Shown here piece after piece: positions 21,764 through 49,902 of a stretch of DNA of 64,000 nucleotides (position 1 is its first letter; every line of letters begins with the position of its first letter). A model generated the notes under the pieces. The model had not been told where the DNA came from, made no database searches, and was given only the letters and a program-made list of their open reading frames with translations. The DNA is from Bursaphelenchus xylophilus. Its lineage: Eukaryota > Nematoda > Chromadorea > Rhabditida > Aphelenchoididae. Location of the stretch: NCBI GenBank assembly GCA_904066235.2, contig CAJFCV020000003.1, positions 12,090,001 to 12,154,000 on the forward strand, in the 5' to 3' direction. The position numbers were made by a program, and so were the translations under genes.

Positions 21764-23517
21764 CTAAAGCAACCTATTCTCCAACTTCTGAAGGAGAAAA
21801 ACGGCCAGCACTACCAGCAGTAAGATGAACACTAGCGCCCCGCCAGCGCCTACTCCTATCAGCGCACAATTCGGGGATTCCGTCGCAATCGTCACATCCT
21901 CGGAACTTCTAAAAAAATATAATTCACAGAAAGCGAGGACCCACGATCTTCCGTTCGGATTGTACAGGTACTTCACATAGGTGTTGTTGAAATAATCGGC
22001 TAACTCAGGACCAAGTGGCTTACATCCTTCCACCGAAAATTTAATAAGAATGTAGTTCTGAAAACAAGAATTACATTACAAATAAACAAAAACAATTTTT
22101 TGGCGCTACGGCGTCTCGGGTCAAGGACAGCTCCGGTCAGCGACATTTCGCGTTAACGATACGATATCGTTTAATTTTTTCGTTTCGGGACTGGAAAAAA
22201 GAATTTTTGTGAAATTTGAACAAAATTTTGAAACGTTTTCGCCCCGGGAAAAGAAAACAAAAAAAATTTGTTTGTGGATAACCGATCTGAACGTTACAAT
22301 CTTCCTTTACAGAGTAGAGTAAAAATGTTACTTCTGGATTTTTTTAGATAAACTATTCCGTTGATGATTGTTAGGATAGGACGTATCTTATATGTAAACG
22401 TGAAAATTTTGTTCAATTTCTCCAAAAAATTCTTTTTTCCAGTACCGAAGCGAAAAAGTTAAACGGTATCGTTAAACCGGAATGTCGTTGACCCGATCTC
22501 TTCCCGACCCGAAAAGTCGGGACGCTCTCTTTTTCACTTACTAATGGAAAAAGTAGGACGTTCTTTGAATTCAACTTGAATTTGTCGTCCTTTGCGCATT
22601 CCGACGCTTTCCAAACGTGATCCACAGCCCAATTTAATTCTTTGCAGACGTCCTCTCCCTTATTTTTGAAGACAATCTTATCTCCAAACACTGCCAGCTT
22701 GCTTTCGCAGTTGAACTGGTCCTGGGTTTCCGTTGAGTAGTCGCCAAGATAGGTTCCATTCAATTGGTATACATGATTTCCGTGTGCATCTTTTACACAT
22801 CCAATCTTCACCATATTCGATCCCAGCATTTCAAATAAGGCAGCGCTTGTCAATGAACAGTCTCTAGTAGCGACTTTCTTATCAAAAACCGGGCATTCAC
22901 TACAAAAAAATATTGTAAAAATAAAACCCCACTCTGCAGCCTTGTATCCAGAAACTCCGGTGAGAAGCTTGTCTTGTTCCAGCGCCAAGTGAAAGCGGTA
23001 ACTTTCCAGGCCTGTCTCGTTGTCAACCAAGTCCAGTTTCTCGTCACTGAAAGTAACATTTGATGTTGATAAATCTTTCTCAAGTTTATAGCGCGCACCC
23101 CAAATGCGTCACATTTTAATCCCTCAGAACGTCAGCTCCGAATCTACCAGCGAAGCAAAGATACAGTGGCGAACCTAATCCGGTGGCAAAAAACGTACCA
23201 TTTTGCCTCCGGGAAGTCTCAAAAACGCAGCAAAATACTTCCTTCTCGAACTTAAAAACTCCACAAAGCTAGGGTCACCTACTTACTAGATGAATTCTAG
23301 CACATAAAATTGAAATTTTGCACCCGCGTCCCACTTACGTCACATTTTTCTCGGACGGATTGTACGTGTATCGAATAAACCCTCCATCATTATCTTTTGC
23401 ATGGGTTATTATCTGGAACTCGTTCGGGACTTGGCCCTCAAATTTCGTGGTCAAGTTGAGACACTGCAGAAAGGTTGTTATCGAGGAGTAGAACTCCGCT
23501 GTCGAAGGAGAACTCAT
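21764..23517 (-). CDS. receptor-like membrane protein without kinase domain (copy 1)
   Basis: Paralogue of the receptor pseudokinase at 28003-37210, but ending just after the membrane helix. Exons are 23517-23339, 23046-22542 and 22057-21764. Junctions are in phase (2 then 0), giving 325 aa. Exon 1 is identical in translation to that of the long gene. The ectodomain keeps the paired Cys pattern and N-x-S/T sites (LNLT, NGTY, NNTY). The helix is a GVGAGGALVF segment followed by about 15 hydrophobic residues. After it, instead of the RRHMKR stop-transfer and kinase domain, the frame reads QKLENRLL and stops. The foldback at 20247-21734 begins 30 bases further on. It may be an expressed decoy-type protein or a pseudogene that has kept its frame. 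Confidence 0.7.
22137..22495. mobile_element. foldback element in receptor intron 2 (F3)
   Basis: Imperfect palindrome with ends CGACATTTCGCGTTAACGAT and ATCGTTAAACCGGAATGTCG. Related copies occupy intron 2 of the other receptor genes: about 35390-36180 (split by an F1 insertion) and 41092-41440. Its presence in all three copies shows it was inserted before the gene duplicated. Confidence 0.65.
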
Positions 23518-24640: not shown

Positions 24641-25045
24641 TTCCCTTAAGTAGTACTGTAAAGTAGTAGTTTTTAACACTTTTTCATGAATACTCGATTT
24701 GGGGTTTTCGGTGGTGCTGCTTTCAAATCAGAAGAAATGAGTAAGATTTTCGAAATCAGCCCCCCAAATCGAGTATTTATAAAAAAAAAGTTCAAAAATT
24801 TCCTACTTTACAGTACTACTTAAGGAAAAAAGTAAATATCCAAAAAAAAATGAATGTCATTTTCGAAATCAGCACCCTCGATTATCCTATTTTCACACTT
24901 GGATCGAAGAAAAGTAATACTTTCGGTTTCCCCAATCGTCCCAGTTCCTCATGAAAAATATAAATTGTCAAAAATTGGTAATTTTTTTGTAGAAAGTCCC
25001 TTTTTTCCCAATCACAACCGTCACAGTTAAAAAAAATACGAATTT

Positions 25046-27261
25046 TTAACAATTTATATTATCCATGACCAACCTCATACCTTGCGGTAAAAACCGATCT
25101 CTCCCTTGTCGATGTTGGTCGCCATGGCCATTCCGGCCCATTTTACAGCTTTCCACATCCATTGCAGACCCGTTTCTGCACGCTTTCACCTCCTGCTGAA
25201 CGGGGCTGACCATTTTCTGATCGCTGATATTCCCCATGACGAAATTTCTTCTTGCTTCGTCCAATTCGTGTCTAACCGTCTGAACATAAAACGAATCGTC
25301 CCTAGTGTTCCTCCGAACGTCTCTTGAGGCCGGTTTCACCCAATCATATTCGACTTTTCGGTTCTCTTGTCGTTGAATGATGGACGCCTTGGACGAAACT
25401 CCCATAATCGAGGCATGAATGCTGGCCTGGGTGGCGGGGAATGGTGGGGAACTATCTTCCACACTCACCACCTTCTTCCTATCCTGTAGAACATGGTCCT
25501 CGATGAATTCTGCGACCTGTCTTTCCCTCTCCTCTAAATCAATATCTTCGTTCTCCAGCAGCCATCGGAGGGCTTCCTGAAGAAAAATTCAATTACCAGC
25601 ATCATGAACACACCCCACTTCTAATTTCCACGTCATGAATTCCTAAAATTCCAAAAAAAAATTCAAAACACCTACATTAATATGCCTCTTGATGATGTCG
25701 TAGCGCAGTTCATGTTCGTAGGTGCATTGCTGAATGTAGTGGGCAATGTGGAACAACGGAATCGGGGTGAATTTCGTGAATTTGTCAAACTTAAAAATGG
25801 GTTTTGCCTTGATTGTGGCGAGCATTCGGTCATTTTCGTCGCCCTTCCAGGGCAAGTCGCCCTCCATCATTTCGACAACACCGAACAGCAGTGAGCACAT
25901 GTCGTCACAAGGTCCTTGATCGTAGCGGAGATGGACGCGCTTGGAGCAATAACGAGAAGTTCCTAAAATGAAACAAAAAATCATGGATAACATACCTAAA
26001 TCAAGGTAAAAGTTGTCAAAAAGCAAAGAAATTCCCCAAAAAATCCCCACCTCTGAACGGGACATTATCTCTTCTCTCGATTAATTTCCCATCCAGTGTT
26101 CGAAACCTCCTGGACATTCCAAAATCAATCAAAAAAACCTTTGTTCTTTCATCTGGTAGACGGCCAAGACAAATGTTCGATGGTTTGATATCCCGATGCA
26201 TATAGCCGAGCGTGTGGATTTCTTGCAGCGTCTCCACCAGCTGATAGAACACACCCAACGCAAACTTCACCGGGAATCGAAGATCTGGCGCGAACTTGCG
26301 CAACTCGAACAAATTGTCCGAGTAGACGGGTAGGACCAGGAAACAAAGCTCGTTGGTGTAGCCACTGTCGATCTAAAGCCAGAAAAATGAAAAACAAACA
26401 TAACTTACGAGGTTCGGAACATGTTTGCAAGACGTCAGGTCCAACAGCACCATTCTTTCTGTGTTTATTTGTGAATGTCGATCGCGAGGTTCAACTTTAA
26501 CCGCAACGTACTGCTTGGTTACCTAAAATACATATAATATTAGGCAACACAGCATAAAATCAAAGGCAAACAATACACTAGCTGTTGCGGACCTGAATTG
26601 CCTATAAACATTTCGATATTTTTTATTTTTCCGAACAAATTATATTATTCATGATCAATTAGATAAAAAATGTTAATTCTAGCTTATTCTCAAGTAAATC
26701 TTCAATATAAAACCTTCAAAATCCCTGTAGTATCATTGCTTGTACCTTGACTATCTAAAATCCAACAAAACAACAAGTTCTTACCATATCTTTGGCCTGA
26801 AAGACCTGCCCAAACCCTCCTCTTCCCAAGATAGTGTCGATCTTATATCGGCCGTCCAGCATCTCTCCATCTTTCAGATATGGCGGTGCATCAAGGCCCC
26901 TGGGAATCTCAGGCTTCTTGTGATAATAATGTGGCTGAAAAAAAAGAGAAAATTATATTGTAGTAAAGGTCTGAAAAATTTCGACCAATTTTCAGGATTC
27001 AAAGCTAATTCAGTAAAATAAACGGCAGTATGAAAGAAAAATGGGTTCAAATCACCTAACAGAACCATACTAAACCAACCATCTCCAATTTTAACAGCTA
27101 TATTATCCATGATTAAAAAAGTACCTAAAATAACGTAATTTTGGAAGATTCTCAAAAATAAAGGTCGGAATTGCTATGAGAGGCTTTGTGAAAATGCCAG
27201 AAGCCACCTCTAGTGTGATATTACCCATTCTTACCCGATCTTTTTTCGGTCCAAACGCCAT
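25046..27261 (-). CDS. TTBK/CK1-like protein kinase, left-arm copy with truncated 3' end
   Basis: Same gene as 52317-56228 but missing the last two exons. Exons are 27261-27235, 26934-26785, 26522-26409, 26372-26051, 25962-25676 and 25576 onwards. The normal donor is at 25081. Without exons 7-8 the frame would read through to a stop at 25046, giving about 476 aa. All catalytic motifs are intact: GRGGFG loop, VAVK lysine, HRDIKPSN, DFG (IDFGMSRR) and GTSRY. HRDIKPSN followed by a GRLP motif is typical of TTBK-type kinases of the CK1 group. The kinase should transfer phosphate to Ser/Thr. The retained intron sequence holds the dispersed TCATGGATAATATA element, then the palindrome edge. Whether a shortened kinase is made is unknown. 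Confidence 0.75.
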
Positions 27262-28002: not shown

Positions 28003-31000
28003 CTAGTATTCATCATACGACTTGAACGTGCCCACCAACTTGGCATCACGATTTGGAAAACGCACAGGAGAATGGAGCTCGTCCGACGATACGATCTGAA
28101 AGTTTTTCAAAATATAAAATGCGCTTAAAAACCAATTCGCAGGTAAAAAAATTAAATTCCACATACCGTGAAGTAATAGCTGATGAGGCCCGCGGCCACG
28201 TTTTCCATCTCCAGGTCATCCGTGTAGAGGCCCCTCATGAGACACAAGGTCGCAGCCTCCTTGATGTCGTAGAATTCTTCGGGGATCGCGTTCTCGTCGG
28301 TACACTCTAACTTGACCTTCGTGACTTCCTCAATTTTTTTCATTCCCGCCCAAGGCAGAGGAGCCATCATGCCCAATACCATGTAGAGAAGGCTCTCCGT
28401 GTCCTCCGACTTCAACGCCTTCTTCGCGTGGATGTGAGTGGTTGCCGTTTCGGGGATTGGATAGAACGCCGAGCGTTCCGAGCCGATTCTGATTGCATAT
28501 CCGAGGTCAGTAATGACAAACTGCAAGAAAATAAAATTTGCGCCAAGGAACATAGTGTTGTAAAATCTCTATCATATTTTTATATCAAGAAATCGATATT
28601 GAAGCCATGAAAATTGCCCCATTTGTGTCAAATAAATGGGCGGCCGGGCCCGGTGATAAAAAAAATATATGGTAAAAAAAATTTATTACTAAACCAGAAA
28701 AATAAAGCAAAAATGCTTTGCAGAATTGATGGATAGATATTAAATTAAACCTTTTTGACCTATATGCTGTTTTACTACCCTTTAAAACTGTTTAAAATCC
28801 TTGGCTAGGTTTTAGGGAAAATACAAACTCAACATGCACTCACCCGATACGTATCCCGGTCTTTCTTGACGTAGAATGCGCTCTCCTTGATGTACCGATG
28901 GCAAATCCCGTACCTGATCAGCGCTTTGGTGCAGTAAAGCAACTGGAAGAAGAGTTTTTGCGCCTCGAACGGAGCCATGAGTTGTCCTTGGCGCATCTCG
29001 CGAACGCTTGGGCCATAATTTTCGACCCGCATGCAGTAGACGCCCTCAGAGAAGTGGCAGCAGCTCAGCATGCCGCCAATGTAGATGAAGCTGAAAAAAA
29101 AAGGTTTTGGTCTGATTCCAACTTACTTTTTGTCTGGGCTTTTGGAATTCTTCTCCACCAGCTGGTAGACGCCGCTCTCGCAGGCGAGCGGTTGCTTGTA
29201 TTTGGGGCCGAGGCTTGCCTCCAACTTGTACCAGTACGATGTCCCCTTGTAGTCATATTCGTAAAATGCCCCGAATTGGCCTTCGGCGACCATCCGCTTC
29301 ACCTCGACATTATCGATAATTCTCTGAAAAAAAGCTCATCATTATAAGGGTGGGCCACTCGAAACTCCCAACCTCTTTTCTAGTATTTCTCCGCCAATAA
29401 TGCAACAATTTCTATAAAATTTATATCAAATTGAAGCTGAGACACCCAATTTCCTGTCCACCAAATATGGCCCGTCTAACTTCACGGAAGCACCCGTACT
29501 GACCTTTTACATTTTCATTCCAAATTTTGGAGCCCGAAATCGGTGAAACTTAGAAAATTTTTGGAATGATTTCCAATTGAGTTTCTTGGAATTGGAAAAT
29601 GTTCGCGCCTTTGACTAAATAAAACTCCTATTACGCTTTTTCAAAAGTGCAGACACATTTTTTTGTCTTTTTTGCACCGCACCGTGCATGTTGCGCGACG
29701 AAATCCATTTTGCACTGTGCAAATTCTTTTCGCACGCCCAAAGTTCGCAGCGACACAGCTGAGAAAAGCTTACGTCGCAGCGATATCCGGTTGCACAGTG
29801 CAAAAGGTCAAATGCACCCCGCAAAAAGGAGGTTTGTGCACGGTGCGGCCCACGACAAAATGTGTCTGCACTTTTGAAAAAGCGTAATATAAGCAACAGA
29901 AAAAATGATGGCAGTCAACGGAATAGTCAAAATTATTCTGCAAGGCGTTGCTTTCGTGATCTGGGGCGATTTGCACACACGTCGGGTATGGACTAATCAA
30001 TTCCTGAAAGTTTTAGCTCGCGCTTTGCGGGCGCCGCCGAGATATCGAACTATTTTTGCCGCCGAGAGAGCACGCTAAACGTGGAGAGCGGCCAGAGAGA
30101 AAAGCGCTTTTTGGCCATAACTTTGGGAGTTTCGTGCGGAAAATTTTGATTTTTTGTAGAAACATTATCCTTTACGGCTGAAATAGGCATGAAACATTTC
30201 GTGCCGAAATTCGGCAAAAAGTCCTAAATTTTCGCCAACTTTCGATCTAAAAATCTCGGTTGTTTCTGCAAAGCGGGAGCTAGGATTCTCGCATATATCT
30301 TAGAAAAAAAATATTCTAAATTTGTGCCAAGTTTTATCAAAATTTGAGCGTCGCACTTGGGGTACTTCCCGTGTAAGTTTCACCGATTTCGGGCTCCAAG
30401 ATTTGGAATGAAAATGTAAAAGGTCAGTACGGGTGCCTCCGTGAAGTAAGACGGGCATATTTGGTGGAAAAGAAATGGGGCGTCTCAGCTTCAATTTGAT
30501 ATAAATTTTATAGAAATTGGTGCATTATTGGCGGAGTAATACTTGAAAAGAGGTTGGGAGTTTCGAGTGGCCCACCCTGCACATCAGATACAAAATTTTT
30601 TACTTAAATCGAGAAATCTGATTTGGAGGTTCTATTAGCATTGGTCCATATTGGAAATATCCGAAACATTATCAAAATTCGTCTATACAAAAAAAAAGTT
30701 GATGCGATTTGAAAATTTGGGATTAAAACAGGCGTTTTTGGAACTGAAAACAATTGCGATTGTAGGAATTGCGGGTTTTCTTCACCAATCATGCTCATTT
30801 AGATCTAATCTATCAATTACCGGGTAAAAAAGACGGTTTTCACAGTGTGCCATAACGTCAGCATGTTATACATGACAATATTCACCACTAAATTTTTTAA
30901 GATTTTGAAGCTGCAAATCATTCTTACAAAAAGTGATATTGATTATAAGATCAAATTAGTTTCAAAACATCCGTTTTTACCCTAAAAAGTTCAAAAATTG

Positions 31001-34000
31001 AGGAACTGGGTTGTTGTATAGGTCATGTATAATATCGAAATTTGTACCAAAAAAAGGATGATAGGCTTCAAAAAAAGAATTAAAAACTATGTTACTAACT
31101 AAAACCGTCGATGGGTCAAAGAAATAATCCGTATGTTTCTCACTTTGCATGTCTGTATCAATTCCGTATTATCCATGATAGTGAGACCATCTTAGGAGGC
31201 TATGTCGCCGGCCGGCGCTTTAGCAACGCGGCAACGTCATTCTAGTTTTTATGAAAAGGGGACACCTCAACAAGTCCAAACGAGGTCTGAGCCCAACTAC
31301 TAGCCCTTTTTTGGATCTTATTTTAATCATGTTGTACATGGTAAAGTTATGAAAACATATGGTGGAGATTCTTTTCCATCTAAAAAGAAATACGTAGCCA
31401 ACGAAAGGACGTTACTACGGTTTCGAAACATAGATTACCGATGCAGCAAACCCAAATATGAACATGTGAAGACGTATGTTATTCATGCTAAATTGATGGC
31501 AAAATGTCTTTTAATTTGGCATTATGGACTCTGAAAGGTTTTATAAACTGAGATACCCTATAATGAATGTGTCCATGCAGTGAGCAGCCTTAGCCGTTGC
31601 AAAACCGAAAATTTTTTTGATATACCAAGTTTGATGTATTTCGCCATCGTCTCCAAAACTTGCAGACCAATTCTGCCGAAACTTTTCATATAGAAAGAAA
31701 ATAACATTATTGATAACTCCTACAAATCAGATTTTATAAGTTGCGTATTGGCAAAATTCGAATCAGCGTTTTCAAAAATTACAAATTTTGCAACCTTTTT
31801 GTAGGCTTCCCATGAGGTCGCCAGACCCCAAATTAATTTTTAAAAATAGGTAGATGTCTATAAAAAAAAAAAAAAAAAAAAAAAAAAGAAAAAATAACTC
31901 ACCGGTACGAAGAGTTTCTTCCCATTCTTGAGCTTGACTACAGTGCCCTCCGTGCACTTCTTTTCGGTACGCATTTCCATAGCAATGGAGAAATCATAGC
32001 GCACATGGAATGCGCTATGACGTCTGCAATAAGTCATATACAGGGTGTTTCAAGAAATTTGGAACAAATGATTTGCTTATATCTTTGTGTTCTTTGCAGC
32101 TATCAACGAATTTCTTTTTGCTTCTAAAAATTGACAGCGTGCGTTTTTAGAATCTCAAAAAATTTTTTTTCGTCGGCGGAGGGCCCATTTCTCGGCGGAG
32201 AAAATTAGGGCCTTTTTTAAAAATCACAGCGTATTACGTGGCGGAAACGCCGTTGCAACGGTTGAAATCAAGTTTACGTTACACCTCCGTCGATTTTACG
32301 GTATGCATTTTTTTGTTTTCGATTTTACGCGCACCGCGGAGGCGCGGCGGAGACTTCAGATTTCGGCGGACGTTGTTTTAGGCCTTCGGCTGTTGCAATT
32401 CATGTTGGAAAAGAGTTTGGGGTGATTTTTTGTTGTCATCCGATGCACAGATGGCAAAAATTTCGTGCTTTTTTCCCCGGCGGAGGATTCGGCGGAGGCT
32501 TTATCAAAGGGTTACTTACCGATATTGCCTTTTCATGTGTCGTCGAATGAGAAAAATGGCCAGCACTATCAGCAGTAAGAGGAACACCAGCGCCCCGCCA
32601 ATGCCTCCTCCTATCAGCGCCCAATTCGGGGATTCATCTAGGACCGTCGCAATCGTCACATCCTCGGAACTTCTAAAAAAATATAATTCACAGAAAGCGA
32701 GGACCCACGATCTTCCGTTCGGATTGTACAGGTACTTCACGTAGGTGTTGTTGAAATAATCGGCTAACTCAGGACCAGGTGGCTTACATCCTCCCACCGG
32801 AAATTTAATAAGAATGTAGTTCTGAAAACAAGAATAAGATTGCAAATAAAACAAAAACAATTTTTTGGCGCTACGCACGCCAATTTGTTTACACATAAAA
32901 AAAGTCAAAAAAAAAATTTTTTTTCTTCCTATGAAGTTTAGGGAATTCAATGTAGATTTTTTTTGTTTCAGCATTTTTAATACCTAACACTAGGTTCAGC
33001 TTATTCTTCTCAAACATTGTATTGTTATAGATATTGCAAGTAAAACAATGTTGTATTCTTTAGTGCATCATGTTGTTTTCATGATGTTTTGACTTCTAAA
33101 ATTATTTTTAAGCATTACTATTTGATTTAGGATAAATTTTAGGTAATATGGAGCCTGAATGTTCACGCACGACATCAAATGATAACGAGGAGGTCCCAGT
33201 AAAAGTAAGTTATCTTCTGTAAATTAACAGGGAGCTGGACATTTCTGCGTAGGATTCTTCAGTAGACATATGAGCATGTTTTGGGAAAAAATCGGGAAAA
33301 GATACTGTCAAATTTTTAAAATTTCTGTCAGTTACGTTATGTTACACTTGGGTTTTTCAGAAGAATCAAGCATAAAGAAGCAGTAAGGCACCGAAAGGTC
33401 GTGCAAAACGTTGCAAAACGTTGGAAAGACGTAAGGTGTTTACTACGACTTCAATTTCGGATAGAAGAATTGAGTTGCTTTACGTTTTTCCTATTTTACA
33501 AGGAAAGTACTTCTATGGGGTGTGGAATTACCGGTCGAGATATATATCAAAAAATTCGCAAAAATTTTCTGATTCAGAATATATATAAATTAGCTGCCTA
33601 ATTTTGGTCTAATGGCATGTTTTTGTCCTCAGAAGTTTTCTCGCGACACCATGCAAGTGTCTTTTTGACCGTGTTTTTACCAATAAAAAAAATTTGTTTT
33701 ATGCTAAACTAAATTCTGAGGCCATGACAAGCCTTAAAATATCAAATTGGATTACAACTACACCTTAAAAGTAGTTCCAATGTAAAAAATGGGTTCTAGT
33801 GTGGCAAAAAGAATCGAACCCGTTTCCCTCGGATTTCCAACCCAGCGCTCTAACCACTCGGCCACACCGCTCTCTTCCGAAGGAAGAGACCAAGCGCGCT
33901 TTTGTTGCCGCAGATTTTTTTCCTCGAGAAAAACATTTATTGAAAAAACTCGCTGATAGACCAAAATTAGGCAGCTAATTTATATACAGGGTGGGCCACT

Positions 34001-37000
34001 AAAACCTTCCGTCCTCTTTTTTTAGATTTCTCCGCGGAGACTCCGCCGATTTTCATGAAATTTAGGTCTTTCTGGAGCTGAGATTCGCCATTTTCAACCC
34101 ATTGAACTTCAGGAAAAAATATTCTGAATTGACTTTAATATGCCTTCCCAAAGTTTTTGAAAATTATTTTCGAGCCGAAACCGCTAAAACTTTGAAAATT
34201 TTTGGAATGATTTTCAATTGCCTTTCTCGGACTTGGAAAATTTCGGGCTTTTTTGGTAAAATCGTGGAGTAAAAAGTTCCGTACGCTTTCTCTAAACTTT
34301 GATTAAAGCAAGTTAAAAGCAAAAAAAAGTGTTGTCTGTATTACCCTTAGGGTACGAATGTTGAAAAAAATTTTTTTTTTCAACAAGAGTGAAAAAATCC
34401 ACATTAAGGCTACAAGCCAGGTATTGGCTCATCGAGGCTTGGAGACAGGCTCGATTGAAGTTAAACCATGGTCACGATCCGCACTTCGAGCTGTTCTTAA
34501 CTTTCAAAGCCCCTACAAGTTCGTGCTGCAAGAGGAGGTGGACACGTTGAACTCAGACAGAAATATTAATAATCAAATTGTTAAATAAATTAGTTTTTAC
34601 AACAGTATTTTGCAAATATATGAGGCAAAACGAGTAAGATTTCACCCAAAAACCCGAAAAAATTACCAAATTTTCAAAATCATTCCAAAAATTTTCTAAG
34701 TTTTAGCGGTTTCGGCTCGAAAATAATTTTCAAAAACTTTGGAAAGGCATAGAAAGGTCAATTCAGGATATTTTTTTTTCAAATTCAACCGGTTGAAAAT
34801 GGCGCATCTCAGCTCCAGAAAAATCCAAATTTCATGACGGTCGGCGGAGTATCCGCGGAGAAATCTAAAAAACGAGGACGGAACGTTTTAGTGGCCCACA
34901 CCATATTCTGAATCAGAAAATTTTTGCGAATTTTTTGATATATATCTCGACCGGTAATTCCACACCCCATAGAAGTACTTTCCTTGTTAGGTAATAATCA
35001 TGCGGAAGCAAGTAAAAGTGGATTTATGATTAGGGGCTTGGCTCTATTGGATTAATCGGTCGTTCTAGTTATATATAACAGTAAGAGCTTTGTGATTTAC
35101 CTCAAAATCGCCTTGGTTTTGCCTTAAAAAACTGTTGATAGAAAATAGAATCTATGATTCGTTCCAAGGCTTTTTGACTAGTTGTAGCTAAAAGGACGTT
35201 CTTATCGCCCCCTAATTTGCACTAACCGACTAAAGCAAGATTCTGCTCAGAAGACGTCCAAAAACTGTCCGAATTGTTCCAGACCGAGTTGTATGGCATA
35301 ACTTTATATATTTAAAAGTGTATGTATGTGTATTTATTTTAAATGTTCCATAATAAACGGTAAAAGCCATATTCGTATAACTATCGGTGCGCAATTCCAA
35401 TTACGTCGGGCGCAACTCGGAAAACCTCGCGAACGTTTTCGCTTCGGGAAAAGAAAACAAAAAAAATTTTTTTTGTGGATAACCGATCTGAACGTTACAA
35501 TTTTCCTTTACAGAGTAGAGTAAAAATGTTATTTCTGGATTTTTTTAGATAAACTATTCCGCTGATGACTGTTAGGATAGAACGTATCTTATACAGCGTG
35601 GGCCACTCGAAGGCCTGATTGAAGTTTTAACTTTAAAAACCATATCCACGATACGCAATTCTAGCTGCGCATGACTCTCGAAGGCACTGCAAGTTTGTGA
35701 TGTTAGAGGAGGTGGGCATAATAACTCAGTATTAATAACAAGCATTAATAATCAGAGTGTTAAATAAAATTGTTTTCGGAACAATATTTGATAACTATCT
35801 GAGGTAAAACAAAGAAAATTTCACCCAAGAACTCGGAAAAATGACCAAGCTTGCAAAATCATTCCAAAAATTTTCTAAGTTTTAGCGGTTTCGGCCTGCA
35901 AATAATTTTTCAAAGCTTTGAGAAGGCATGGAAAGGTCAATTCAAAATATATTTTTTTTGAAATTCAGTCGATTGAAAATGGCGGGTCTCAGCTCCAGAA
36001 AAATCTGAATTTTAGAAAAATCGGCGGAGTCTCCGCGGAGAAATTCAAAGAAACAACTTGTCAGCTTCGAGTGGCCCACCCTGTATGTAAACGTGAAAAT
36101 TTTGTTCAATTTCTCCAAAAAATTCTTTTTTCCAGTACCGAAGCGAAAAAGTTAAACGGTATCGTTAAACCGGAATGTCGTTGACCCGATCTCTTCCCGA
36201 CCCGAAAAGTCGGGACGCTCTCTTTTTGACTTACTAATGGAAAAAGTAGGACGTTCTTTGAATTCAACTTGAATTTGTCGTCCTTTTCGCACTCCGACGC
36301 TTTCCAAACGTGATCCACAGCCCAATTTAATTCTTTGCAGACGTCCTCTCCCTTATTTTCGAAGACAATCTTATCTCCAAACACTGCCAGCTTGCTTTCG
36401 CAGTTGAACTGGTCCTGGGTTTCCGTTGAGTAGTCGCCAAGATAGGTTCCATTCAATAGGTATACATCATTTACGTGTGAATTTTCTAGACATCCAATCT
36501 TCACCATATTCGATCCCAGCATTTCAAATAAGGCAACGCTTGCCAATGAACAGCGATCAGGATCGAATTTCTTATCAAAAACCGGGCATCCCCTACAAAA
36601 AAATATTGTAAAAATAAAGCCCCACTTTTTATCCTTGGATCCAGAAACTCCGGTGAGAAGCTTGTCTTCTTCCAGCGCCAAGTGAAAGCGATAATTTTTC
36701 AGGCCTGTTTCTCTGACAACCAAGTCCAGTTTCTCGTCACTGAAAGTAACATTTGATGTTGATAAATCTTTCTCAAGTTTAAAGCGCGCACCCCAAATGC
36801 GTCACATTTTAATCCCTCAGAACGTCAGCTCCGAATCTACCAGCGAAGCAAAGATACAGTGGCGGACCTAATCCTGTGGCAAAAAACGTACCATTTTGCA
36901 TCCGGGAAGTCTCAAAAGCGCAGCAAAATACCTCCCCCTCGGACTTAAAAACTGCACAAAATTAGGGTAACCTACTTACTAGATGAATTCTAGCACATAA

Positions 37001-37210
37001 AATTGAAATTTTGCACCCGCGTCCCACTTACGTCACATTTTTCTCGGACGGATTGTACGTGTATCGAATAAACCCTCCATCATTATCTTTTGCATGGGTT
37101 ATTATCTGGAACTCGTTCGGGACTTGACCCTCAAATTTCGTGGTCAAGTTGAGACACTGCAGAAAGGTTGTTATCGAGGAGTAGAACTCCGCTGTCGAAG
37201 GAGAACTCAT
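28003..37210 (-). CDS. receptor-like CK1-group pseudokinase (intact copy, 8 exons)
   Basis: Exons: 37210-37032, 36739-36235, 32821-32520, 32023-31903, 29323-29127, 29090-28844, 28520-28167, 28095-28003. Every junction agrees in phase (2,0,2,0,2,0,0), giving 665 aa. Residues 1-290 form an ectodomain with N-glycosylation motifs and about ten Cys. I see no N-terminal signal peptide, so an upstream exon may be missing. Residues about 296-320 are a membrane helix (GGGIGGALVF start) followed by RRHMKRQYR. Residues about 370-640 resemble the CK1/TTBK kinase fold: AEGQFGAF replaces the glycine loop, Lys402 sits in a YWYKLE motif, a YGPSVREMR segment matches the CK1 LGPSLEDL region, HRYIKESA replaces HRDIKPSN (catalytic Asp and the Mg-binding Asn absent), and TDLG replaces DFG. 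It is most likely a signalling scaffold. Introns 2-4 are full of transposons. Confidence 0.85.
29348..30578. mobile_element. F1 foldback element in intron 4 of left receptor gene
   Basis: Ends GGGTGGGCCACTCGAAACTC / GAGTTTCGAGTGGCCCACCC. Long inverted arms include AATTTCTATAAAATTTATAT. The same insertion is present in the right arm at 43934-45163, so it predates the palindrome. It contains the nested MITE at 29631-29887. No transposase is visible. Confidence 0.8.
29631..29887. mobile_element. MITE with TTACGC ends, nested in F1
   Basis: Perfect ends TTACGCTTTTTCAAAAGTGC / GCACTTTTGAAAAAGCGTAA, flanked by TA on both sides, with several GCACAGTGCAAA palindromes inside. The related F1 copy at about 15121-15135 lacks it and provides an empty site. 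A TA target duplication is the mark of Tc1/mariner-type transposition. Confidence 0.8.
32038..32440. mobile_element. repeat with CAGGGTGTTTCAAGAAATTT terminus in intron 3
   Basis: Same family as 18983-19440. The right arm lacks it in the corresponding intron, so it was inserted (or lost from the other arm) after the palindrome formed. Confidence 0.6.
33155..33380 (+). other. possible captured exon fragment in intron 2
   Basis: A plus-strand frame from an ATG at about 33167 reads MEPECSRTTSNDNEEVPVK up to a clean GTAAGT donor. A TTTTTCAG acceptor lies at about 33355, but the following exon stops after a few codons. It could be a fragment of another gene or chance. It is antisense to the host receptor gene. 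Confidence 0.2.
33498..35008. mobile_element. foldback element with nested F1 insertion
   Basis: Ends ACAAGGAAAGTACTTCTATG / CATAGAAGTACTTTCCTTGT, related to the MITE at 54913-55490. An F1-family element (about 33987-34903, ends CAGGGTGGGCCACT / AGTGGCCCACACC) is nested in it. It is absent from the matching intron of the right arm. Confidence 0.7.
33799..33867 (-). pseudogene. tRNA-Ser-like module in a foldback element
   Basis: The minus strand carries GTGTGGC and GCCACAC as a perfect 7-bp outer stem, TGGCCGAGTGGTTAGAGCG (serine-type D arm), an anticodon-loop TTGGAAA compatible with GGA, and the B box GGTTCGATTC. The T-stem is broken on its 3' side, and the outer stem is out of register with normal tRNA numbering. 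It is therefore a tRNA-Ser-derived pseudogene or SINE-like promoter rather than a working tRNA. Confidence 0.55.
35594..36085. mobile_element. F1-family element inserted in F3 element
   Basis: Ends CAGCGTGGGCCACTCGAAG / CTTCGAGTGGCCCACCCTG with TA at both flanks. The uninterrupted F3 sequence at about 22385-22400 (CGTATCTTATATGTAAACG) is the empty site. This copy is only in the left arm. Confidence 0.75.
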
Positions 37211-38248: not shown

Positions 38249-38834
38249 TGACGAGAAACTGGACTTGGTTGTCAGAGAAACAGGCCTGAAAAATTATCGC
38301 TTTCACTTGGCGCTGGAAGAAGACAAGCTTCTCACCGGAGTTTCTGGATCCAAGGATAAAAAGTGGGGCTTTATTTTTACAATATTTTTTTGTAGGGGAT
38401 GCCCGGTTTTTGATAAGAAATTCGATCCTGATCGCTGTTCATTGGCAAGCGTTGCCTTATTTGAAATGCTGGGATCGAATATGGTGAAGATTGGATGTCT
38501 AGAAAATTCACACGTAAATGATGTATACCTATTGAATGGAACCTATCTTGCCGACTACTCAACGGAAACCCAGGACCAGTTCAACTGCGAAAGCAAGCTG
38601 GCAGTGTTTGGAGATAAGATTGTCTTCAAAAATAAGGGAGAGGACGTCTGCAAAGAATTAAATTGGGCTGTGGATCACGTTTGGAAAGCGTCGGAGTGCG
38701 CAAAGGACGACAAATTCAAGTTGAATTCAAAGAACGTCCTACTTTTTCCATTAGTAAGTCAAAAAGAGAGCGTCCCGACTTTTCGGGTCGGGAAGAGATC
38801 GGGTCAACGACATTCCGGTTTAACGATACCGTTT

Positions 38835-40176
38835 AAAACACGATTTCTGAGTCACTGAATTAGCCGTGGACATAGAAAAAAAATCGATTTTGAGTTTTTT
38901 GTTTTAAAATGACCGTAGGCATCCAATAAACATATGACTGAAATATTTTTGTCTAATTCTCTCATTAACCTACTGTAATTTACAATTTAATGTTTTTACA
39001 GTAATCGATTTTTCGAATCAGCATGAAATTTTGCCCCAGAATCATTATATAATATGTCTTAGCTGACCATTTTTATTTCGCAGAAATTTTGCACTGAAGA
39101 TTACATACAAATTTTTTGGTTGAAAAAAAAAATTTAAAAATTTGGGTTTTTGGTCTATAAATGTGTGGATCCATCGTTTAAATTCAGATATGAAGTATTT
39201 TTGGCTTAATCAAGAACTAATGTAGTTTTATTTACAATTTTCAAACTTGAAAGTAATTCACCACAGTGAAAAAAGTGTTTAACTGAGAAAGTCAACTTTC
39301 AGTGTCGCTAGTGTGGAATTTCATGCTGATTCGAAAAATCGAAGAATTAGCTGCGTATACTCGCAATGAACAGTTCTACGGCCGATTTTAGCGGCCGAAA
39401 TCCGTTTTCGCGATGTTACAGTAATCCTAGGTCCGAAAAATTGGGTCCATTGAACTCAGATGGCTAGAAAACGTACATTATATCATTTTTAGCCATTTTG
39501 CTTAACTAAATTTGGGCCAGAATCCGCGAAGACCAAAATAATAATTTTAACTCCGAAAAATGCCTTCTAATTTGCGAATAACCCATGATCCAGTTTTTGG
39601 TACTCTGCGTGTATATTATCAATTCCCCTCGACACGATTTTTTGAAGTTTTGTGCGGTTTTACAGATTTTGGTTCCACGGGGATCGAACCCGCGACCTTC
39701 GGATTACTAAACTTGACCAAAATCCACTACACCACGAAAATCGGGGCACGACTTTTTAAACTTTTTTTAAATGTTTCTAGGGCAGAATTTTACGCTGAAC
39801 AACATATGTAAAAATCAGCTGCGGGTTTTCAGAAACAAATTTTTTATGGCCGATTTTGTGCGGCCGAACCTATATTGCGGTATGTTACAGTAACCTGTAT
39901 GCCGAAATTCTGTGTCTATTATGACGAGCATGCTCGGAAACATCAGTATTCTCAATTTCAGCCGCTTCCTATGCCTAGTTGTCTAGTAATGGTCGATTAC
40001 TGTAAAAACATTAAATTGTAAATCACAGTAGGTTAATGAGAGAACTAGGCAAAAATATTTTGGTCATATGTTTATAGGATGCCTACAGTCAATTTAAGAT
40101 CAAAAACTCAAAATCCATTTTTTTCTATGTCCGGGCCTAACTGGGGGCTGATTCAGTGGCTCAAAAATCGTGTTTT
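38835..40176. mobile_element. foldback element carrying a tRNA-like module (F2)
   Basis: Ends AAAACACGATTTCTGAGTCA / AATCGTGTTTT with long inverted arms (38840-39010 and 40000-40170, sharing ACAGTAGGTTAATGAGAGAA-type sequence). It was inserted into the F3 element of intron 2 and is present only in the right arm. Confidence 0.7.
39671..39738 (-). pseudogene. tRNA-like module in F2 element
   Basis: The minus strand contains CGTGGTGTAGTGGATTTTGG (A-box-like) and GCGGGTTCGATCCCCGT, a T arm with a paired stem and a perfect B box. The anticodon and acceptor stems do not pair. It resembles the module at 9879-9948 in a related element. Confidence 0.5.
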
Positions 40177-40732
40177 AACTTTTTCGCTTCGGTACTGGAA
40201 AAAAGAATTTTTTGGAGGAATTGAACAAAATTTATTTTCTTCTACAAAAAATCGAAAAAATAATTCGTGTCAAGTGTCTCCCTGGCCCGTTTGGTCAACT
40301 GTTTCCCTCCGCTTAAAAACTACCGTATCATGGCTGAAAAAGAGTTAATCATCGCAGAAATTGCACAAAGTAAGGAAGATTAACAGATAAATCGAAAAAT
40401 GTATACTCAAGACAGAAAAAAAATAAATCTCTGCCATATTTGGCGGCATCTTTAATGTTTACCGCTGGAGTAAGGTAATTTATTTCGTTCATAACATTCT
40501 TTTGAGATGACCGATGGAAAAATATTGAAATAATGGAAATTTCAATATTTCGGCCAATAAGGTATGTTTTTATCTCAAGATTGGTTTGGTTTTTAGATAT
40601 GACATAGAAGGCTGTGAGGGCTTCCAGATTCTGTAAAAAAATCGAAAATCGGTGGTCAACTTTTTGAGAAAATTGGGTTTAAAGTTTGGGTCCTAAGGGC
40701 AAAAAATTGTAAATTTTGAATTTTCATGATGT

Positions 40733-41090
40733 TTGCGCATTTATAACGTTCTAACTAACATCACAAATGCTTCCGTGACTCCAAAAAGGACTCATACGTC
40801 TCTAATGAACGGTCAACGTGAACGCGCGGCCGTGGCAACTTCCTCAGAGAAAAAAGTTCGGGAGCTCACAGAAGAAGCGGAAAAATTGCAAAAACAAAGA
40901 TATGTGGTGAATTAAAGAGATGACAAACAAGATCGGCAGTTCATGTACCGGAATTTTTAAACCGCCACCATCAACACCAGTTATTAATATAATTCCAACC
41001 CAAAGTCAAACCAGTCAAGATGGCAAGCAACATTTTCACAAAGCTCGGGCGCAGCCCACAAAAATAGTTTTTGAAGAAAATAAATTGGCG
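40733..41090 (+). other. possible captured coding fragment
   Basis: The frame at 40733-40915 contains NGQRERAAVATSSEKK and VRELTEEAEKLQKQ, a short charged coiled-coil-like stretch. The next frame (40920-41090) has IFKPPPSTPVINIIPT. Composition is more protein-like than the neighbouring transposon DNA, but there is no start, no splice evidence and no recognised family. It is absent from the left arm. Confidence 0.25.
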
Positions 41091-41749
41091 TGGATACCGT
41101 TTAAATTTTTCGCTTCGGTACTGGAAAAAAGAATTTTTTGGAGAAATTGAACAAAATTTTCACGTTTACATATAAGATACGTCCTATCCTAACAGTCATC
41201 AGCGGAATAGTTTATCTAAAAAAATCCAGAAATAACATTTTTACTCTACTTTGTAAAGGAAAATTGTAACGTTCAGATCGGTTATCCACAAAAAAAATTT
41301 TTTTTTTCTTTTCTTGTCCCGGAGCGAAAACGTTTGAAAATTTTGTTCAAATTTCACAAAAATTCTTTTTTCCAGTCCCGAAACGAAAAAATTAAACGAT
41401 ATCGTATCGTTAACGCGAAATTTCGTTGACCCGAGCTGCCCTGAATGTTGTTCTCCAGGTGGTAGTCCAAATTGAAACGGCAAAACCGGCTACTATGCTT
41501 CCTCTTATCGAATTACATTGCTAAACAATGTACAAGGAGGTGCACCTCACCGGTGAGAACAGAACATCAGAAAATCTTTTTATCCGAAAATAAATCAAGA
41601 ACATTTGTTCTTCGGAATTTTCTCGACGCGAAAATCCCTGATTTTCAATTTTTTAGCCGATCAAATTTCGGTTCAAAAAATACCTTTTGTGGTCCTTTAA
41701 TTGTTTGAGTTATTGATTGAAATAAATGTTCATTTTTTTGCACGGTGCG

Positions 41750-41940
41750 GTATAAATAAAATGACTTATAAAAACATATATGAAATTATAAGTCAATTCA
41801 ACAAGAGCGCACAGAGAACCCTTATAAAATCATATATGAACATATAAGTGATTTAAAATGACTTATAAGAACAGATAATGACTTATAAAAAAATCATTTC
41901 ATTATAAGTCATTATATGTTTTTATAAGTCAATTTGGGTC
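41750..41940. repeat. AT-rich inverted and tandem GACTTATAA repeat
   Basis: ATGACTTATAAAAACATATA and its complement alternate several times over 190 bp, giving a palindromic cluster that resembles a small MITE. Confidence 0.6.
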
Positions 41941-42379
41941 CGCTGTGGTATCGTTAGCCCGAAATGTCGTTGACCTGAGCTGTCCCTAACCCGAGACGCC
42001 GTAACGCCAAAAAATTGTTTTTGTTTTATTTGTAATCTAATTCTTGTTTTCAGAACTACATTCTTATTAAATTTTCGGTGGGAGGATGTCAGCCACCTGG
42101 TCCTGAGTTAGCCGATTATTTCAACAACACCTACGTGAAGTACCTGTACAATCCGAACGGAAGATCGTGGGTCCTCGCTTTCTGTGAATTATATTTTTTT
42201 AGAAGTTCCGAGGATGTGACGATTGCGACGGTCCAAGATGAATCCCCGAATTGGGCGCTGATAGGAGGAGGCATTGGCGGGGCGCTGGTGTTCCTCTTAC
42301 TGCTGATAGTGCTGGCCATTTTTCTCATTCGACGACACATGAAAAGGCAATATCGGTAAATAAAGTTTTGAAGAGCCGG

Positions 42380-42615
42380 GGTGGGACGATTGGGGAAAAA
42401 GACGATTGGGGAAAAGTACGATTGGGGAAACCGAAAAGTATTATTTTTTGTTGGTGCAAATGTCGAAATTAGGATAATCGAGGGTGCTCATTTCGAAAAG
42501 AACATGATTTTCGATTATTCGATTATCCTAATTTCGACATTTGCACCAAAAATAATACTTTTCGGTTTCCCCAATCGTACTTTTCCCCAATCGTCTTTTT
42601 TCCCAATCGTCCCAT
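42380..42615. mobile_element. near-perfect hairpin element in intron 3
   Basis: GGGACGATTGGGGAAAAAGA runs outwards to TCTTTTTTCCCAATCGTCCC, with arms of about 110 bp and almost no loop. Part of the arm (ACGATTGGGGAAACC, TAGGATAATCGAGGGTGCT) is shared with the element in kinase intron 6. It ends about 12 bases before the exon 4 acceptor and is missing from the left arm. Confidence 0.75.
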
Positions 42616-43933
42616 TCCGCTTCTTGCAGACTTCATAGCGCATACCACGTGCGGTATGATTTCTCGACTGCGATGGAAATGCGTACCGAAAAGAAGTGCA
42701 CGGAGGGCACTGTAGTCAAGCTCAAGAATGGGAAGAAACTCTTCGTACCGGTGAGTTATTTTTTCTTTTTTTTTTTTTTTTTTTTTTTTTATAGACATCT
42801 ACCTATTTTAAAAAATTAATTTGGGGTCTGGCGACCTCATGGGAAGCCTACAAAAAGGTTGCAAAATTTGGAATTTTTGAAAACGCTGATTCCAATTTTG
42901 GCAATACGCAACTTATATTAAGAAATCTGATTTGTACGAGTTATCAATAATGTTATTTTCTTTCTATATCGAAAGTTTCGGCAGAATTGGTCTGCAAGTT
43001 TTGGAGACGATGGCGAAATACATCAAACTTGGTATATCAAAAAAATTTTCGGTTTTGCAACGGCTAAGGCTGCTCACTGCATGGACACATTCATTATAGG
43101 GTATCTCAGTTGGCTACGTATTTCTTTTTAGATGGAAAAGAATCTCCACCATATGTTTTCATAACTTTACCATGTACAACATGATTAAAATAAGATCCAA
43201 AAAAGGGCTAGTAGTTGGGCTCAGACCTCGTTTGGACTTGTTGAGGTGTCCCCTTTTCATAAAAACTAGAATGACGTTGCCGCGTTGCTAAAGCGCCGGC
43301 CGGCGACATAGCCTCCTAAGATGGTCTCACTATCATGGATAATACGGAATTGATACAGACATGCAAAGTGAGAAACATACGGATTATTTCTTTGACCCAT
43401 CGACGGTTTTAGTTAGTAACATAGTTTTTAATTCTTTTTTTGAAGCCTATCATCTTTTTTTTGGTACAAATTTCGATATTATACATGACCTATACAACAA
43501 CCCAGTTCCTCAATTTTTGAACTTTTTAGGGTAAAAACGGATGTTTTGAAACTAATTTGATCTTATAATCAATATCACTTTTTGTAAGAATGATTTGCAG
43601 CTTCAAAACCTTAAAAAATTTAGTGGTGAATATTGTCATGTATAACATGCTGACGTTATGGCACACTGTGAAAACCGTCTTTTTTACCCGGTAATTGATA
43701 GATTAGATCTAAATGAGCATGATTGGTGAAGAAAACCCGCAATTCCTACAATCGCAATTGTTTTCAGTTCCAAAAACGCCTGTTTTAATCCCAAATTTTC
43801 AAATCGCATCAACTTTTTTTTTGTATAGACGAATTTTGATAATATTTCGGATATTTCCAATATGGACCAATGCTAATAGAACCTCCAAATCAGATTTCTC
43901 GATTTAAGTAAAAAATTTTGTATCTGATGTGCA

Positions 43934-45163
43934 GGGTGGGCCACTCGAAACTCCCAACCTCTTTTCAAGTATTACTCCGCCAATAATGCACCAATTTCTA
44001 TAAAATTTATATCAAATTGAAGCTGAGACGCCCCATTTCTTTTCCACCAAATATGCCCGTCTTACTTCACGGAGGCACCCGTACTGACCTTTTACATTTT
44101 CATTCCAAATCTTGGAGCCCGAAATCGGTGAAACTTACACGGGAAGTACCCCAAGTGCGACGCTCAAATTTTGATAAAACTTGGCACAAATTTAGAATAT
44201 TTTTTTTCTAAGATATATGCGAGAATCCTAGCTCCCGCTTTGCAGAAACAACCGAGATTTTTAGATCGAAAGTTGGCGAAAATTTAGGACTTTTTGCCGA
44301 ATTTCGGCACGAAATGTTTCATGCCTATTTCAGCCGTAAAGGATAATGTTTCTACAAAAAATCAAAATTTTCCGCACGAAACTCCCAAAGTTATGGCCAA
44401 AAAGCGCTTTTCTCTCTGGCCGCTCTCCACGTTTAGCGTGCTCTCTCGGCGGCAAAAATCGTTCGATATCTCGGCGGCGCCCGCAAAGCGCGAGCTAAAA
44501 CTTTCAGGAATTGATTAGTCCATACCCGACGTGTGTGCAAATCGCCCCAGATCACGAAAGCAACGCCTTGCAGAATAATTTTGACTATTCCGTTGACTGC
44601 CATCATTTTTTCTGTTGCTTATATTACGCTTTTTCAAAAGTGCAGACACATTTTGTCGTGGGCCGCACCGTGCACAAACCTCCTTTTTGCGGGGTGCATT
44701 TGACCTTTTGCACTGTGCAACCGGATATCGCTGCGACGTAAGCTTTTCTCAGCTGTGTCGCGGCGAACTTTGGGCGTGCGAAAAGAATTTGCACAGTGCA
44801 AAATGGATTTCGTCGCGCAACATGCACGGTGCGGTGCAAAAAAGACAAAAAAATGTGTCTGCACTTTTGAAAAAGCGTAATAGGAGTTTTATTTAGTCAA
44901 AGGCGCGAACATTTTCCAATTCCAAGAAACTCAATTGGAAATCATTCCAAAAATTTTCTAAGTTTCACCGATTTCGGGCTCCAAAATTTGGAATGAAAAT
45001 GTAAAAGGTCAGTACGGGTGCTTCCGTGAAGTTAGACGGGCCATATTTGGTGGACAGGAAATTGGGTGTCTCAGCTTCAATTTGATATAAATTTTATAGA
45101 AATTGTTGCATTATTGGCGGAGAAATACTAGAAAAGAGGTTGGGAGTTTCGAGTGGCCCACCC
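43934..45163. mobile_element. F1 foldback element with nested TTACGC MITE (right-arm copy)
   Basis: Mirror copy of 29348-30578. The nested MITE lies at 44624-44880. Both arms carry the same nested arrangement. Confidence 0.8.
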
Positions 45164-45166
45164 TTA

Positions 45167-45475
45167 TAATGATGAGCTTTTTTTCAGAGAATTATCGATA
45201 ATGTCGAGGTGAAGCGGATGGTCGCCGAAGGCCAATTCGGGGCATTTTACGAATATGACTACAAGGGGACATCGTACTGGTACAAGTTGGAGGCAAGCCT
45301 CGGCCCCAAATACAAGCAACCGCTCGCCTGCGAGAGCGGCGTCTACCAGCTGGTGGAGAAGAATTCCAAGAGCCCAGACAAAAAGTAAGTTGGAATCAGA
45401 CCAAAACCGTTTTTTTTTCAGCTTCATCTACATTGGCGGCATGCTGAGCTGCTGCCACTTCTCTGAAGGCGTCTA
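45167..45475 (+). repeat. direct duplication of exon 5 and start of exon 6 (first copy)
   Basis: Duplicated at 48388-48697. The shared block starts ATAATGATGAGCTTTTTTTC and covers exon 5, a 36-37-base intron and 54 bases of exon 6. The first copy breaks at GGCGTCTAC and continues TTCAGAGAATTCTG, which repeats the intron-exon junction string TTCAGAGAATT. Confidence 0.8.
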
Positions 45476-46357
45476 CTTCAGAGAATTCTGTCCTTCATCG
45501 AGCGCGCCAAAATGGGCGGGGTTTGACAGAAATTTTTCTGCGATCAAATTGTTTGGCTTGGGATAGCCTGCCGCTATGCCAGGTTTGACAGAAATTTTTG
45601 AGCGGAAATTCTTCTGCCATCAGATTGGAGGTAAATAAAAACTACAGAAGCTGAACACAGTTTTTGAATCAACAATAACACATATCTTGCACTTAACTAT
45701 TCATAAAAAAATAAAAATAAGAAATCACAACTTTACAGCACAACTCATCATGAATCTCGTTCTGGAATAAGCACCCATAAAACCTACCAATTCAAAAAAG
45801 CTCAAAGTTACTACTTTACAGTACTGTTTAAGAACAATTTGACAGCAGCATAATTTCTGCCGAACTTGTGTTGGCGCCCATTTTTGGCGCGCCCAATGAT
45901 GGGCTAGAGGCAGGCTCTCCCAAGCTAAACATTTGACAGCAGCGTCAAAAATTACTACCTAACACTACTATTTAAGAAAAAAGTAACAATCGTGAAAAAT
46001 GAATGTCATTTTCGAATTCGGCACGTCAAATTACCTATGAATCGATAGCTCAACCAAAATTTTCAAAAATTACTACTTAACACTACTATTTAAGAAAAAA
46101 GTTACAATCATAAAAAATGAATGTCATTTTCGAATTCAGCACCCCAAATTACCTATGAATCGATAGCTCAACCAAAATTTTCAAAAATTACTACTTAACA
46201 CTACTACTTAAGAAAAAAGTTACAATCATAAAAAATGAATGTCATTTTCGAATTCAGCACCCCAAATTACCTATGAATCGATAGCTCAACCAAAATTTTC
46301 AAAAATTACTACTTAACACTACTATTTAAGAAAAAAGTTACAATCATAAAAAATGAA

Positions 46358-47490
46358 GGGTCTATATTTTTCGCCCAGAATTAAAAATATTTTTCCCCAG
46401 AAAAGAGCATTATAGAAAAACTCCTATTTTCTCCCAGAAAAAATATATTTTCTCCCAGAAAGAAAATATTTTTCCCCAGAAAAGAGAATTTTGAAAAAAA
46501 TGCTATTTTCTCCCAGAAAAGAAAATATTTTCTCCCAGAAAGTATAATTTTGTAAAAATAAAGCACGGAAGTAGTAAAAATTGATGAATTTTTTTTTGCC
46601 TTCTGCGCCGGGAATAACATTCAGATTTACAATAAGAGAAATTCATCCTTATACTCATCGGGAAAAAAGACATTCAAGAATAAAACATGAGAGATTACTA
46701 CCTTCTAAAAGATAGTGACGTCGAAGACGTAGATACCGTAAAGGTTTAATTCAGCACGACAAGGCAATATGTCAGTTCGAATCCAATATTATGCACTTCT
46801 CTGGGACCCATGCATCGTATTTTACATTACTACTTGCAATAAAGTTGGAAAGGAAATCCCACGTTTTTCCAATCTTTTTTCAGATTTTCAACTTCCAGAT
46901 GATATTACTTTAGACGACTTCTTAATTGAGTTTAAAAACAAGTAAGAATTATAATGATTTATACAAAGACATGTATGAATGAATTCTTTAATGGTTTATT
47001 CTTGGATGTCTTTTGTTCCCAATGAAAATAAGGATGGGTTTCTCTTATTCTAAATCTGAATGTTCTTCTTGGCGCTGAAGACGACAGACAGGCTGTCAGT
47101 GCACCCTTTGACCACAAAAAAGTGAAAATCACAAAAAGTGAGAATCATTTTTGAAATCAGCACCGTCGATTACATCTATTTCCAGTATTTCCTCAAAAAC
47201 TTACCACAAATACTATTTTACATTACTGCTTAATTTATTTTACTAGTAAAGTTACTTATTCATCAATTTTTACTACTTCCGTGCTTTATTTTTACAAAAT
47301 TATACTTTCTGGGAGAAAATATTTTCTTTTCTGGGAGAAAATAGCATTTTTTTCAAAATTCTCTTTTCTGGGGAAAAATATTTTCTTTCTGGGAGAAAAT
47401 ATATTTTTTCTGGGAGAAAATAGGAGTTTTTCTATAATGCTCTTTTCTGGGGAAAAATATTTTTAATTCTGGGCGAAAATATTTTTCCCA
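46358..47490. mobile_element. foldback element inside the satellite array
   Basis: Inverted repeats of about 215 bp (46366-46580 and 47270-47480) are built from TTTTCTCCCAGAAA-type units and their complement CTGGGAGAAAAT. The element splits one satellite unit. The core of about 690 bp is unique in the window and holds a small open frame. Confidence 0.8.
46769..46945 (+). CDS. small open frame in the core of the foldback element
   Basis: 58 codons from ATG to TAA. The end reads FQLPDDITLDDFLIEFKNK, strongly biased to acidic and hydrophobic residues and unlike the AT-rich surroundings. A TTTTTTCAG lies inside it just before that segment, and the AAG-TAAGAATT end is also a perfect donor. It may therefore really be an exon from about 46886 to 46941. 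A second acidic frame (MRDYYLLKDSDVEDVDTVK) starts upstream at about 46687. It could be a captured gene fragment or an element-encoded protein; the family is not recognised. Confidence 0.35.
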   Translation: MSVRIQYYALLWDPCIVFYITTCNKVGKEIPRFSNLFSDFQLPDDITLDDFLIEFKNK

Positions 47491-49897: not shown

Positions 49898-49902
49898 CGG
49901 CG

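Follow-up and report, generated by a model that had tools for sequence, protein, structure and literature searches.

Several single-pass receptors are known in which an ectodomain is joined by one membrane helix to a degraded cytoplasmic kinase domain, among them RYK, ROR, and HER3, all of which belong to the tyrosine-kinase group. The receptor guanylate cyclases are likewise described, in PMC4883820, as single-pass receptors with an inactive kinase domain. Here we describe a gene with this layout, gene A (28003..37210, minus strand), in a window of 64,000 nt of the Bursaphelenchus xylophilus Ka4C1 assembly (contig CAJFCV020000003.1, positions 12,090,001 to 12,154,000; unlabelled coordinates refer to this window). 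The kinase-like domain of gene A and its relatives is similar in sequence to TTBK1, TTBK2, and CK1, but the family differs from these kinases in that a helix and an orphan ectodomain have been added and catalytic residues have been lost. It differs from RYK, ROR, and HER3 in that its domain is of the CK1 group and in having tail-less paralogues and a hypervariable segment, and from the receptor guanylate cyclases in that no cyclase domain was found by Pfam. An expanded TTBK family has been reported from Trichinella, in a paper in which the word “transmembrane” is absent from the main text (PMC5015942). Among the open-licence papers listed, none describes a CK1-group receptor in its title or abstract start, and among open-licence papers we found none that joins B. 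xylophilus with tau-tubulin kinase or receptor pseudokinase with tau tubulin kinase. Receptor pseudokinases are already known, but the literature searched yielded none from the CK1 group that has tail-less twins and a hypervariable segment.

A spliced alignment to an annotated relative divides gene A into ten exons, located at 37210-37032, 36739-36626, 36592-36235, 32821-32709, and 32672-32520 (exons 1-5), and at 32023-31903, 29323-29127, 29090-28844, 28520-28167, and 28095-28003 (exons 6-10). An earlier note on this DNA had proposed eight exons. Its exons are correctly placed, all their introns have GT..AG borders, and they yield an in-frame product of 665 amino acids, but the second and the third each contain a micro-intron, of 33 nt (36593..36625) and 36 nt (32673..32708), respectively. 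The frame of gene A stays open with or without the micro-introns. We take them as spliced because of the alignment to the annotated relative, because P0003, the database model of a second copy in the window (copy C), splices out both of them, and because the second one is 35 nt long in the copy C1F and cannot remain in frame there (copies are named after the contigs C1, C2, C5, and C6, with F for full-length and T for tail-less). The product of gene A is therefore likely to be a protein of 642 amino acids. For comparison, the median intron of B. xylophilus is given as 69 nt in PMC3164644. The membrane helix, after which comes a basic stretch, is located at approximately 32540..32614 (hydropathy peak 3.23), and exons 6-9 (28167..32023) encode a juxtamembrane segment and the TTBK/CK1-like domain, with the motifs YKLE, HRYIKESAF, and TDLG. 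The single membrane helix, the basic stop-transfer RRHMKRQYRR, the N-glycosylation sites (sequons), and the HRY and DLG motifs that had been noticed previously are all present in gene A.

Similar sequences are abundant in the genome, with at least 71 matches to the helix-and-kinase part and at least 59 to the ectodomain, 17 of which are copies of exon 1, with one more partial. Spliced models were obtained for nine collinear full-length copies (A, C2F, C6F1, C6F2, C6F3, C1F, C5Fa, C5Fb, and C5Fc), eight of which are open, without any stop or frame break, and one of which, C5Fb, has an in-frame stop. The phases of the nine introns (2,2,0,2,2,0,2,0,0) are common to A, C6F1-3, and C1F, and also to C2F except for a 6-nt exon that we take for an aligner artefact. 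The first nine introns of P0009, a protein with 36% identity to P0001, have the same phases, and C5Fb and C5Fc depart from gene A in some introns. P0009 is the database model of C5Fa, and our statements about this copy rest on it, as our own spliced models of C5Fa diverge from P0009 after exon 6. The intron between the helix exon and the juxtamembrane exon is only 45 nt long in C2F, which together with the common intron phases supports the joining of the helix exon to those of the kinase part. Three loci in one assembly have database models, P0001, P0002, and P0009, that also fuse the ectodomain, the helix, and the kinase-like domain. Judged by its relatives, gene A is a real gene and one copy of a family, and the architecture of ectodomain, helix, and kinase-like domain is, with high confidence, that of a single gene. 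The central claim of the earlier note, a family in which a membrane helix is joined to a CK1-group pseudokinase-like domain, is thus supported by the copies and by the profile matches described below, of which the nearest is TTBK1.

The family also contains a tail-less class of six, perhaps seven, members, which encode the ectodomain and the helix and have a stop just past the helix. These are copy B in the window (21764..23517, minus strand), which had escaped notice before, C6T1-3, C2T, C1T, and a copy on C5 with an uncertain last exon. The copies C6T1-3 and C2T have an identical end residue and similar 3′ flanks, and thus seem to represent an established form and not independent accidents, while C1T and B end otherwise. 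The C5 copy (C5:3568024-3569244, minus strand; stretches L049 and L045) terminates in a short run of hydrophobic residues with hardly any tail after it, an end that presumably resembles a glycosylphosphatidylinositol (GPI) signal. In gene A itself, a TAA is placed in frame right after the donor of the membrane exon (32520/32519), and retention of intron 5 alone would give a tail-less protein.

The earlier note had placed the cytoplasmic domain in the CK1 group, and the profile search agrees with this placement. A profile of six sequences (alignment A1), one of which is a 633-aa C5 chimera with joined exons from two neighbouring copies, matched TTBK1 first (E 7e-11 over positions 354-570), followed by TTBK2, DYRK2 (7e-7), and CK1 alpha (3.5e-4). 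P0009 alone also matched TTBK1 first in PDB (4e-5) and then CK1, and its matches to 40 distinct sequences consisted of 36 TTBK, casein kinase I, HRR25, or YCK2 proteins, two unnamed Ser/Thr kinases, and two PAK proteins. The cut-off of the Pfam kinase profile, 31.7 bits, was not reached by gene A (12.8) or P0001 (20.8); all six members of A1 matched this profile below E 1 (best 5e-7), and PF00069 is listed for P0009 in the database. The aspartate of the HRD motif is replaced by tyrosine in six of the eight open full-length copies and by alanine in one. The remaining copy retains HRD, but has ELG in place of DFG, with glutamate for the aspartate that is present in the other seven. The catalytic-loop asparagine is absent from all eight, and no copy has this residue and the two aspartates together. 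The beta-3 lysine (K374 of P0001) is invariant in A1. Catalysis thus looks to have been lost, perhaps more than once, and the family looks like a soluble kinase class that was turned into a receptor tail, with catalysis lost by different routes (HRD to HRY or HRA, and DFG to ELG).

The ectodomain contains eight cysteines that are invariant in all 15 members aligned and may form disulphides. In these members, four to seven sequons are located within the first 265 residues, and zero to two are found after residue 300 in the eight open full-length copies. In gene A, the stretch that follows the helix is strongly basic. Taken together, the cysteines, the distribution of sequons, and the basic flank suggest that the ectodomain is outside and the kinase-like domain inside. 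No Pfam family was found above the cut-off in the ectodomain, and among the 60 of 354 PDB matches listed, none fell outside the kinase part. Searches of the protein database for relatives of the ectodomain identified nine proteins, all from B. xylophilus (5 of 6439, 8 of 5600, and 1 of 7999 candidates); the searches were based on shared words, the C5 members were absent from the results of the first two, and the last scored only the candidates that share most words, such that more remote relatives could have escaped detection. A short GTGCGG motif is present a little ahead of the start codon in ten A-type copies and in the C5 copies, but not in C1F or C1T. It occurs in differing frames and therefore looks like a DNA or RNA element.

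The outer and the inner parts of the protein have evolved in different manners. In six full-length copies, omega, the ratio of non-synonymous to synonymous rates, was estimated to be 0.227 for the kinase domain (2dlnL, twice the difference in log-likelihood, 99.9; p 2e-23) and 0.303 for the juxtamembrane part. A hypervariable segment of 61 residues (98-158 of P0001), encoded in gene A by the first part of exon 3 (36403..36592), had an omega of 4.50 in the six C6 copies (2dlnL 17.2, p 3e-5), 2.24 in ten copies (p 3e-4), and 1.70 when all twelve were included (p 0.004). For exon 2 the result was borderline (1.95, p 0.058), and the stalk, the helix, exon 1, and the remainder of exon 3 showed no departure from 1. 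If constraint had merely been relaxed, omega would be expected to lie near 1, not above it. Counts of differences between full-length and tail-less partners show a similar pattern. In five disjoint pairs, the segment has 99.5 non-synonymous versus 6.5 synonymous differences (one-sided Fisher p 8e-6), as compared to 73.6 versus 22.4 in the rest of the ectodomain. With the C1 pair included, the counts for the six pairs were 133.8 versus 19.2 in the segment (p 0.0035) and 127.6 versus 34.4 in the rest of the ectodomain (p 0.56). Columns with six or more residues in the alignment are located at positions 97, 109-115, 131-137, and 147-154. These estimates cover the A-type copies, full-length and tail-less; the broken copies, namely copy C of the window and those on C6 near 9.778 and 9.804 Mb, on C1 near 0.99 Mb, and on C2 at 9.12 Mb, the fragments, and the C5 members were left out.

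We consider it moderately probable that the family represents receptor pseudokinases whose signalling is non-catalytic and whose ligand changes fast. The proteins would be single-pass surface receptors with a disulphide-rich ectodomain directed outward and a TTBK/CK1-derived domain in the cytoplasm. The hypervariable segment would bind a quickly changing ligand, whether a sister receptor, a protein of the mate, a parasite, or a rival, and changes in this ligand would drive the amino-acid change in the segment. The inner domain would transfer no phosphate; as a conserved platform for docking or allostery, it would bring in a genuine effector once the outer part is engaged. The tail-less paralogues, with the same ectodomain, may act as decoys or non-signalling partners. 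More tentatively, the linked pairs of a pseudokinase-tailed signalling receptor and a tail-less twin, both with the hypervariable segment, could possibly form a system for self/non-self or parasite recognition in the nematode. In such a system, the segment would be driven to change, while conversion would maintain the likeness of the promoters and flanking exons, and purifying selection that of the inner domain. To our knowledge, there are few candidate nematode recognition receptors with a hypervariable, positively selected segment. The proteins of the Botryllus fester locus differ from those of the gene A family, for which the sequence of one nematode strain was analysed. A parallel between the two would lie in selection: according to its title, PMC3549757 describes fester as an allorecognition locus under selection. 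In the gene A family, the variable and the constrained parts as well as the tail-less twins are defined to the residue, and a role in recognition therefore lends itself to direct testing.

Several observations weigh against a surface receptor with a positively selected outer segment. No signal peptide was found, and the best hydropathy over 19 residues at the N-terminal end was 0.35-1.29. The earlier note had suggested a search for a signal peptide in an upstream exon. There is no AG between the ATG and the upstream in-frame stop in 10 of the 12 A-type copies, which leaves no room for a spliced-on exon, and this source of a signal peptide was rejected for these ten copies; C1F and C1T do have AGs ahead of the ATG. 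An acceptor within exon 1 seems less likely, given that several of the residues 4-18 are conserved across lineages. The topology thus rests on charge, cysteines, and sequons. By analogy with neuregulin, in which the membrane helix acts as its own signal, the helix of the family may serve the same purpose. The AlphaFold models, built from seven sequences, had pLDDT values of 33.0 and 32.7 and were too poor to judge the fold. As for selection, the C1 pair shows the opposite pattern in the segment (34.2 versus 12.8 differences, omega 0.69), and omega for the segment was 0.36-0.43 in the distant comparisons (A versus C2F, C6F2, and C1F, and C1F versus C6F2), with synonymous distances of 0.66-1.44 that are near saturation for A. 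The signal of selection therefore comes from the close pairs, and when taken singly, 5 of 11 comparisons reached a one-sided p<0.05. Finally, omega was estimated under a tree model, an assumption that gene conversion violates, and the null model with omega set to 1 was fitted on a grid of kappa values. Gene conversion is thus a real confounder of the tree-based omega, but it is not an obvious source of an excess of non-synonymous differences.

Other explanations share parts of this evidence. The same anatomy with another ligand would serve in reproduction, for recognition between sperm and egg or between male and female. Proteins of gametes are often fast-evolving, and the non-synonymous excess in one segment would be in line with such a role. 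Gene clusters of the male stage in B. xylophilus are enriched for terms of protein kinase activity (PMC6465311), but the passages of this source name no gene of the receptor pseudokinase family, and we regard a reproductive function as possible yet doubtful. The diversity of the segment, found in the outer part of a parasite protein, might instead reflect escape from recognition by the host, pine or beetle, which would encounter the ectodomain in exposed or shed form. Of all parts tested, however, the cytoplasmic domain is the most constrained. This constraint points to signalling in the cells of the worm itself and, together with the lack of a detected signal peptide, makes exposure to the host an unlikely explanation.

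Alternatively, the inner domain could retain an unusual form of catalysis, and gene A would then encode an ordinary receptor kinase. The invariant beta-3 lysine and the DFG aspartate in seven of the eight open copies agree with this, and activity has been reported for VRK3, a former pseudokinase, in PMC13030254. However, either the catalytic or the DFG aspartate is gone in all eight copies along with the loop asparagine, by changes that differ between lineages, and retained catalysis therefore seems improbable. Less probable still is a reading in which most of the copies are the remains of a recently formed, transposon-rich amplicon and gene A is a chance survivor without function. Debris of this kind would account for the large and young inverted duplications, whose arms reach 99.8% identity, for the broken copies and fragments seen in the window as well as on C1, C2, and C6, and for the gene model P0005, in which family pieces are fused to an M13 peptidase. 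The low omega of the kinase domain, the eight open full-length copies, and the eight cysteines kept in all aligned members argue for function. Of the readings weighed here, we favour that of receptor pseudokinases that would signal without catalysis.

The window contains further copies and a kinase. Gene D (25046..27261, minus strand; lower end taken from the last open frame) codes for a soluble kinase of the TTBK type in which the HRDIKPSN and DFG motifs are intact, and an inverted duplicate of this gene is located at 52317..54531 on the plus strand. Copy C (about 38249..51569, plus strand; its start taken from the inverted arms) had, like copy B, escaped notice before; it is an inverted, rearranged, and broken duplicate of gene A, in which exon 7 is present twice and exon 9 is interrupted, and no match to exon 1 was found in it. 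The region 24185-55356 is one large, young inverted duplication, centred near 37.5 kb, in which kinase D and receptor A were copied together. Its arms are 96.3% alike for 24185-28471 versus 51104-55356, 99.8% for 28467-29345, and 99.6% for both 29032-31402 and 36152-36917. In a tblastn search (E≤1e-3) with the first four exons of gene D, no match was found in 19 other stretches around family copies, a set that does not include L049; one further weak match (32%) was located in L048, a stretch around a distant kinase. The earlier note had proposed that the receptor works with the active TTBK-like kinase encoded next to it, a partnership for which we find no support, given that D and A were copied in one duplication and that D is without a match in the 19 stretches. 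Another inverted pair in the window (14368-14649 and 23694-23976) stems from an additional, diverged member of the family, of which it preserves pieces of the last two kinase exons.

Head-to-head arrangements of a full-length and a tail-less copy occur at three places on C6 and at one each on C1 and C5, with 1.7-9.4 kb between the starts, whereas the copies on C2 and those in the window are in tandem. As the C6 units are probably duplicates of each other, the head-to-head arrangement is found in three of five clusters. In the second and third C6 units, the two partners share upstream regions of about 1.0 and 0.8 kb with 99.5% and 99.9% identity, respectively, and exon 1 is without any difference between the partners in all three units, which points to conversion. 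The nearest relative of the segment is the local partner in 9 of 12 copies, such that co-evolution of the partners and local duplication are indistinguishable. On C2, a broken family copy is located at 9.117-9.122 Mb, and the fusion model P0005 is placed on the same contig. ARAGORN called no tRNA in the window; by eye, positions 33810-33880 in intron 3 of gene A resemble a decayed tRNA gene.

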